Part shown: piece by piece, positions 480 to 33,230 of the stretch
Layout: the number at the start of each line of letters is the position of its first letter
How positions within the stretch are numbered: position 1 is the first letter of the stretch
Assembly (NCBI GenBank): GCA_020629005.1
Contig: JAHDEE010000012.1
Location: 17,828-56,452 of the forward strand
Length of the DNA: 38,625 nucleotides
Direction: 5' to 3'
From: Chitinophagales bacterium
GTDB taxonomy: Bacteria > Bacteroidota > Bacteroidia > Chitinophagales > UBA2359
The notes under the pieces: model-generated
Told to the model about the DNA's origin: nothing
Database searches by the model: none
The model's input: the letters and a program-made list of their open reading frames with translations, nothing else
Position numbers and translations under genes: made by a program

Positions 480-666
480 ACGGTGCAAGATAGCCCTGAT
501 GGAAGAGGAAAGATGGCTTGCAGCCAGGCGACTGAGTGTGCCACTAGACATGGCTCGGAGCTTGCCGGAGAGACATGGATAGTGGATACACGAAGCGCCT
601 GGATGTGAGCCAGCTTGTAACGGACAGCAGGCAAGCCGGTTCTTAAGTCGAACAAGCTAACGCTTC
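480..666 (-). repeat. Structured dispersed repeat, copy E4 (most diverged)
   Basis: Read on the minus strand, it starts 35 nt after the stop of the MATE gene with a T-run followed by GAAGCG. It then carries the family blocks ATGTCTCTCCGGC, AGCTCCGAGCC and TTTCCTCTTC followed by AGGGCTAT. Seven-base arms GCAAGCC (631-637) and GGCTTGC (515-521) pair perfectly and can be extended by AAGA/TCTT across a small internal loop. The conserved blocks occur in the same order as in the copies at 12830, 25504 and 33043. The rest of the 407-701 intergenic stretch holds nothing else I can recognise. Confidence 0.65.
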
Positions 667-701
667 AAAAAAAAAATGCATTTTTGATATGGAAAGTGTG
701 A

Positions 702-12799: not shown

Positions 12800-12829
12800 A
12801 AGATAACAATCGATTTTTTGGAGCGAAAG

Positions 12830-13003
12830 GGGTGTCCAGCGCTTAAATTTCTGTCCCGTGCTCCGCTCTTATGAGACAGCTGCTTGCCTGTTCATGCACT
12901 TGCTATGTGGTCTCTCCGCAGGCTCCGAGCCCCCACAGCAAGGCATTCACCACGGCAAGCAGCTGTCTCATACCGCTTCGCCCGGGGCTATTTTGCACTG
13001 TTC
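12830..13003 (+). repeat. Structured dispersed repeat, copy E1 (perfect 18-bp arms)
   Basis: It starts with TTTTTT then GGAGCGAAAG, 30 nt after the stop of the giant gene and in the same orientation. The conserved blocks, in order, are CCCGTGCTCCGCT, TGTGGTCTCTCCGC, GGCTCCGAGCCCCCAC, CATTCACCAC and CGCCCGGGGCTATT. An 18-bp perfect inverted repeat, ATGAGACAGCTGCTTGCC at 12871-12888 and its complement at 12954-12971, encloses the central blocks. The remaining 140 bp up to the next gene (13004-13144) shows nothing I recognise. Confidence 0.8.
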
Positions 13004-25320: not shown

Positions 25321-25504
25321 GGAGGTGTCCCAATAGCCCCGGGCGTCGCGGAAATGCATGCCGATGATGCTGTGGCGAATGGCAGCCAGTGGGGGCTGGG
25401 AGCTTTGCGAGCAGACCACAATGGCTGACCATGAGCAAGCAGCAGCGGTATGCATTGCAGCAGAGCACGGGAAGGTCTTTTCCTGAGCGTATACGCTTCG
25501 CTCC
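25321..25504 (-). repeat. Structured dispersed repeat, copy E2
   Basis: On the minus strand it starts with a T-run then GGAGCGAAG, 83 nt after the stop of the queuosine-precursor transporter gene. Blocks in order: TTCCCGTGCTCTGCT, TTGTGGTCTGCTCGC, AGCTCCCAGCCCCCAC, CATTCGCCACAG and CGCCCGGGGCTATT. The enclosing arms ATGCATACCGCTGCTGC (25455-25439) and GCATCATCGGCATGCAT (25370-25354) pair at 14 of 17 positions. Apart from this element, the 395-bp gap between the two convergent genes shows nothing recognisable. Confidence 0.8.
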
Positions 25505-25587
25505 AAAAAAGAAAAAGAGTTTGAAGCTCAATTATCGTCGGCTTAGCAAAGCGCTTTCACCAAACCGATGCGGGCTTGGGATAGAGA

Positions 25588-33004: not shown

Positions 33005-33042
33005 CAGAGCCCCTTGAAAGAAAACATAATGCTCAATTATTA

Positions 33043-33230
33043 GGAGCGAAATGTTCCTCCACCAATCACTGCCCTTCCCGCTCTTCGTTCCAATTCGCTA
33101 CTGTGCAGCCTGCTACAGCACAGCCACTGCCGTCTCGCCTTTAAGGGCGAGCCAGCATTGGCTGGCTTCCGCCACGGCTGCTCAGCAGCTCATTTCCTCT
33201 TCGATCGGGGCTATTCTGCCACTTTCGTCC
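33043..33230 (+). repeat. Structured dispersed repeat, copy E3
   Basis: It starts TTAGGAGCGAAATG, 38 nt after the PgpH-type gene stop and in the same orientation. Blocks in order: CTTCCCGCTCTTCG, CCGTCTCGCC, GGCGAGCCAGC, CTTCCGCCACGG and GATCGGGGCTATT. Arms GCTACTGTGCAGCC (33097-33110) and GGCTGCTCAGCAGC (33176-33189) pair at 12 of 14 positions, with an inner GCCAGC-ATTG-GCTGGC hairpin (33151-33166). The following 500 bp to the next gene holds only the small repeats listed below. Confidence 0.8.

Follow-up and report, generated by a model that had tools for sequence, protein, structure and literature searches.

A long branch of the Flavo-1 superfamily in a Chitinophagales bacterium may be a dispersed DNA hairpin element with exchangeable stems

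The window analysed here, a stretch of 38,625 nucleotides from a Chitinophagales bacterium, contains four intergenic copies of a structured repeat (E1 to E4). On balance, and with modest confidence, the family is best explained as a DNA hairpin element scattered over the genome, in which stems are swapped as cassettes and one arm is corrected against the other, rather than as a dedicated RNA gene. This explanation is favoured because the arms are joined almost wholly by Watson-Crick pairs, the stems are mosaic, and, among the closest copies, stem changes are as often compensated in pairs as they are single. The preliminary description of the window had taken pairing kept through changing sequence as the mark of a selected structure. 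The family was indeed found to be multi-copy and structured, with arms that compensate each other's changes, and two checks proposed in that description, further copies in the genome and covariation over background, came out in its favour. The step from pairing to selection needs qualification, as much of the arm variation is whole-stem exchange together with apparent arm-to-arm correction; these two processes would give rise to covariation even without selection on each copy.

The four copies were present as described, with their blocks in the claimed order: E1 and E3 on the plus strand, E2 and E4 on the minus strand (together, the described strand). E1 (12814-13003, +) starts with a T-run and GGAGCGA box (12814..12826), identified by reading and with the box conserved in a 32-copy alignment. 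It continues with a linker of variable sequence and near-constant length, delimited from the alignment of copies (12827..12853), and a hairpin with a GGGGCTATTTT tail (12854..12994). The order within this hairpin is outer stem, proximal arms, distal stem, apical core, and GGGGCTATTTT tail; the proximal arms are perfectly complementary (18/18), as had been stated. E2 (about 25511 to 25330, -) contains a T-run and GGAGCGAA box, also found by reading (25498..25511), and a hairpin with its tail (25330..25472). E3 (33040-33217, +) has TTA and a GGAGCGAA box (33040..33050, by reading), followed by the hairpin and tail (33076..33217). Of the four copies, E4 (about 674 to 487, -) diverges most; it has a T-run and GAAGCG box (661..680, by reading), with the hairpin and tail at 487..632. 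A covariance model built from 32 copies of the genome picked exactly E1 to E4 in the window, with scores of 157.5, 125.4, 120.6, and 94.9 bits, respectively. E1, E3, and E4 fold better than 200/200 dinucleotide shuffles (z -7.9, -6.1, and -4.7), and E2 better than 197/200 (z -2.7).

A copy is about 217 nt long, of which the hairpin part takes up about 141 nt. The element consists of a T-run, GGAGCGA, a linker of about 30 nt, the outer stem CCCGTGC/GCCCGGGG, the proximal stem, the distal stem, and the apical core GGTCTCTCCGCAGGCTCCGAGCC; 3' of the core follow GGGGCTATTTTGCAC and a loose TCCnnCGCG motif. The hairpin terminates in GGGGCTATTTT, which together with GGAGCGA forms the conserved boxes. 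Alignment of the copies showed that the proximal and distal stems are both variable in sequence. The linker is private to each site, near-constant in length and variable in sequence. Pairing of the linker with the downstream TCCnnCGCG motif was considered and rejected, as covariation was absent. Short tandem arrays such as GGGATCTGGGATCT, CCAAATCCGAAATC, GTAGAGAGTAGAGA, and CCTCTACCCTCTAC often lie downstream of the element in the genome of the window (L036, L044, L101, L119, L144, L147).

Many more copies exist in the genome of the window (G000), a draft of 6.9 Mb in 456 contigs that is 97% complete. The covariance model found at least 150 full-length copies, every listed one with E < 1e-22. 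On arbitrarily chosen contigs amounting to 214 kb, the same model found 19 copies, which suggests about 600 in the 6.9 Mb. The 22-nt apical core gave 159 matches in the genome, versus 0 for a reversed control pattern, and E1 as query against its own genome gave at least about 40 matches. Several copies are truncated where a contig ends (L485, L484, L493, and L489 in this genome, and others); therefore, the repeat probably breaks short-read assembly. Relatives were also found in 8 of 20 genomes of the same bacterial family, with 8 to at least 150 matches apiece, and in few genomes of the wider order. Most of these genomes share the ends alone (GGAGCnA ... TCCCGCTATCCGTT, a variable hairpin, ACCACTTCTATCGGGGCTATTTT). 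A sister subfamily in G006, G011, and G015 (L155, L160, L152, L162) has a reversed outer stem, CGGG...CCC versus CCCG...CGGG, and is without the GGGGCTATTTT tail; it was also seen at L448 and L472 in G001. The core-pattern matches in G040 and G056 (L061, L063) were discarded, as these loci have no match to the covariance model; other loci of G040 do match it.

The preliminary description recognised no known kin, which was not borne out. Four loci of related genomes (L154, L153, L164, L170), picked up by the covariance model, score 44-54 bits against Flavo-1 (RF01705), above its gathering score of 42 bits. E3 (32.5 bits; minus strand, 33216-33070) and E4 (32.0 bits; plus strand, 488-638) match below this score and cover model positions 1-76 of 76; E1 and E2 are absent from the matches at E up to 5. 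All matches to RF01705 fall on the strand opposite to the described one. On that strand, E3 and E4 show UAGCCC(C/U)GAU and the ends AGCGGGA or AGCAGGC, which correspond to the end boxes and internal loops of Flavo-1. Since the relatives exceed the gathering score and E3 and E4 match below it, the family is, as judged by these matches, a long, previously unrecognised and divergent branch of the Flavo-1 superfamily, and is not new in kind.

Covariation, first noticed in the four copies, was far above both controls in 99 copies. Standard pairs occupy 95.4% of the paired cells (72.1% when shuffled), and double compensatory changes occur in 812 cells versus 232 when shuffled (0/500 shuffles); the signal was lost when the partner was slid by 1 to 3 columns. 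Watson-Crick pairs account for 3544 of 3741 paired cells. On the described strand, G-U and C-A contribute 24 and 74 of these cells, or 7 and 45 if three doubtful columns are excluded. Because a C-A cell reads as G-U on the opposite strand, the complement is the likelier folding strand. The pair statistics and the Flavo-1 matches agree: the strand that folds is most likely the complement of the described strand. Wobble is rare on either strand, and on the complement it makes up just 1-2% of the pairs, which would be low for an RNA.

Flavo-1 has been reported as a probable non-coding RNA of which the function is not known (Weinberg et al. 2010, PMC2864571), and is classed as an sRNA in Rfam (RF01705). 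The family might accordingly be a true structured RNA, either an sRNA or an mRNA element, with the folding strand transcribed and each copy selected for its fold. The covariation far beyond the shuffles, the excess of folding-strand wobble over the reverse mismatch, the symmetric purine-rich internal loops on the folding strand, and the Rfam class of Flavo-1 are consistent with this. However, wobble pairs are scarce, about 600 copies lie in every orientation to genes, and the stems exchange independently of their flanks. Moreover, in the transcriptome of F. psychrophilum neither the strand nor the expression of Flavo-1 is consistent: matches are sense or antisense of transcripts indistinctly, and many are untranscribed (PMC9723704). 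A dedicated RNA is thus rather unlikely.

Comparison of the copies showed that the hairpin behaves as an exchangeable cassette, with similar stems at unrelated sites and different stems at one orthologous site. In the genome of the window, 18 pairs of copies have proximal arms that are at least 93% identical, where 0 would be expected if the paired positions were independent. In some pairs with near-identical arms, the distal stems and linkers are at background identity, and near-identical hairpins adjoin unrelated linkers and flanks. Arm similarity is uncorrelated with linker similarity (r = -0.01), and its correlation with distal stem similarity is r = 0.11. Between the copies L123 and L125, the hairpin differs at three positions, of which two make up a single compensated pair, whereas the linkers share 29% identity. 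Among 14 nearest-neighbour pairs of at least 93% identity, there were 13 compensated double versus 11 single stem changes, small counts in which pairs inside one subgroup are not independent. Compensation in two steps would be expected to leave a majority of single changes at such short distances; we therefore infer from these counts that the stems are corrected from arm to arm. Purging of uncompensated changes by strong selection on every copy might mimic this correction.

Different stems at one site were observed in the gap between argE and argH, which was read in 80 mostly Flavobacterium genomes. With a strict pattern, Flavo-1 was found in this gap at 35 of 81 loci (query included); the remaining gaps are nearly empty, or hold other repeats or Flavo-1 variants missed by the strict pattern. 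Between matching flanks (e.g. L389, L406), one species carries the stem GTGCCG...CGGCAC and another ATTTTTT...AAAAAAAT; further stems (CCTGGC, GTGGCG, GAGGCG) occur in others. The stems of related species differ wholly yet stay self-complementary. In some species and not in others, a further repeat, about 46-50 bp long (AAACGAAGTTCACTGAACTCC...AAGTGAAGTAATC), was seen within the Flavo-1 element, in either arm (Flavobacterium loci L364, L370, L382, L388, and L428). An insert of about 46 bp inside the element is present in L428 and absent from L437. Across species, the gaps L362-L441 also hold at least five other repeats (GACAAGTCGCGACTTGTC, CCGCCACGAATTCACGAATT, ACAGGTTTTTAAAACCTGT, TCCTGAGCGAAGTCGAAGGA, CTAAAAATCTAAAAATC runs). 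The argE-argH gap gives the impression of a hot spot for small repeats.

The genome of the window was also compared with that of G001. One copy (L126/L451) occupies the same place and orientation in both, with 81% identity versus a random 95th percentile of 76%; in one of its pairs both sides have changed, T-A to C-G. Such conservation in place and orientation between two species could reflect a local function. The G001 copies corresponding to L102 and L083 are differently oriented. Beside the genes of G001 matching L057 and L096 no copy was found; there, the flanks have diverged too far for an insertion point to be placed, and the L096 comparison also lies too close to a contig end. No clean empty site that would define a target-site duplication was found between the two genomes.

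These observations could be accommodated by the following model. The resident intergenic site comprises the T-run and GGAGCGA box, the private linker, and the hairpin of about 141 nt. When one arm mutates, the change would soon be copied into the other, so that the arms stay Watson-Crick complementary; template switching or gene conversion within the hairpin or a cruciform might be the simplest route. The family would spread and be homogenised as DNA, by ectopic conversion and/or a recombinase.

One possible mobiliser is a REP-associated tyrosine transposase (RAYT), acting on a REP-like element as a single-stranded hairpin. In the genome of the window, two genes match the RAYT model NF047646 at 101-108 bits (cut-off 80), and an IS200-type transposase gene is also present; these three genes lie at L195 1396-1941, L189 1365-1913, and L178 339-884, and a copy lies within 200-630 bp of each. 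However, the search for RAYT gave no match in four genomes: G001, with at least 150 copies, G006, G017, and G326, with at least 32 Flavo-1 copies. Nor does Flavo-1 lie near the RAYT loci that were examined in Flavo-1 genomes. Of 118 Bacteroidota genomes, 94 carry RAYT genes, and most of these 94 are without Flavo-1. A lagging-strand bias was absent from two complete genomes, in which origin and terminus were placed from GC skew and strands were tallied by hand (G344, 4+/6- and 6+/6-; G300, 11+/9- and 6+/4-). In addition, the linkers are not carried along with the hairpins. The link to these transposases is therefore weak and suggestive in the genome of the window only, and mobilisation by RAYT is considered improbable.

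The copies might also be dispersed transcription terminators, or mRNA-end hairpins retained 3' of genes. On the described strand, all four window copies (4/4) lie downstream of a gene, and the GC-rich stem is followed by TATTTTG. Among 75 copies, with gene orientations from simple ORF calling, 27 lie in convergent, 31 in tandem, and 17 in divergent gaps. Convergent gaps are the commonest single class (27/75). However, the divergent gaps hold 17/75 copies, a further 17/75 lie behind minus/minus pairs, and the opposite strand is the likelier folding strand, so that this role is very unlikely. A retron-like or other reverse-transcribed element, suggested by the unit of about 200 nt, the long hairpin of variable sequence, and the A-run that ends the folding strand, is highly implausible, as no reverse transcriptase domain (PF00078) was found in the 97% complete genome.

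A DNA hairpin with exchanged stems may have wider implications. Tentatively, Flavo-1 and its long branch together might be a new kind of genome element and not sRNAs: a site-resident cassette whose stem is exchanged independently of its flanks, with templated arm repair and covariation without RNA function. A functional RNA is conventionally proven by covariation. If DNA exchange and arm correction can yield near-perfect Watson-Crick covariation in hundreds of copies, some of the RNA families among dispersed repeats would need re-examination, Flavo-1 first; near-absent G-U pairs and mosaic stem inheritance would then serve as simple flags. The family would also offer an extensive natural archive for studying how hairpins are repaired and how ectopic exchange proceeds in Bacteroidota.

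The family shares features with several known classes of elements. Integron attC sites are defined by R' (GTTRRRY) and R'' (RYYYAAC) boxes and a cassette-array context. As in attC sites, structure is more conserved than sequence, one strand folds, and a variable stem lies between conserved boxes. However, reading of the alignment revealed no R' or R'' boxes, and the copies stand singly between ordinary genes. MITEs are characterised by terminal inverted repeats and a target-site duplication; in the family, the ends GGAGCGA and GGGGCTA look, by reading, like direct rather than inverted repeats. REP elements are palindromes of 20-40 bp with a GTAG or CGTC tag (PMC3733652, PMC2817692, PMC3116915). 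The family resembles REPs and REPINs in its hundreds of intergenic palindromes per genome, its genome-specific consensus, and the RAYT genes in the genome of the window. It differs in that the unit of about 141 nt is five to ten times the length of a REP, no GTAG or CGTC tag was seen in the family, the stems exchange as cassettes, and several copy-rich genomes have no RAYT. Flavo-1 differs from the window copies in length (76 versus about 141 nt); the window copies have an additional GC-rich distal stem with a conserved apical core, carry a linker of about 30 nt between the GGAGCGA box and the stem, and score under the gathering score. Nevertheless, the two share the conserved ends UAGCCCCGAU..AAGnGG / CGGAnAGCGGGA with a variable stem in between on the same strand, and both reach high copy number in Bacteroidota.
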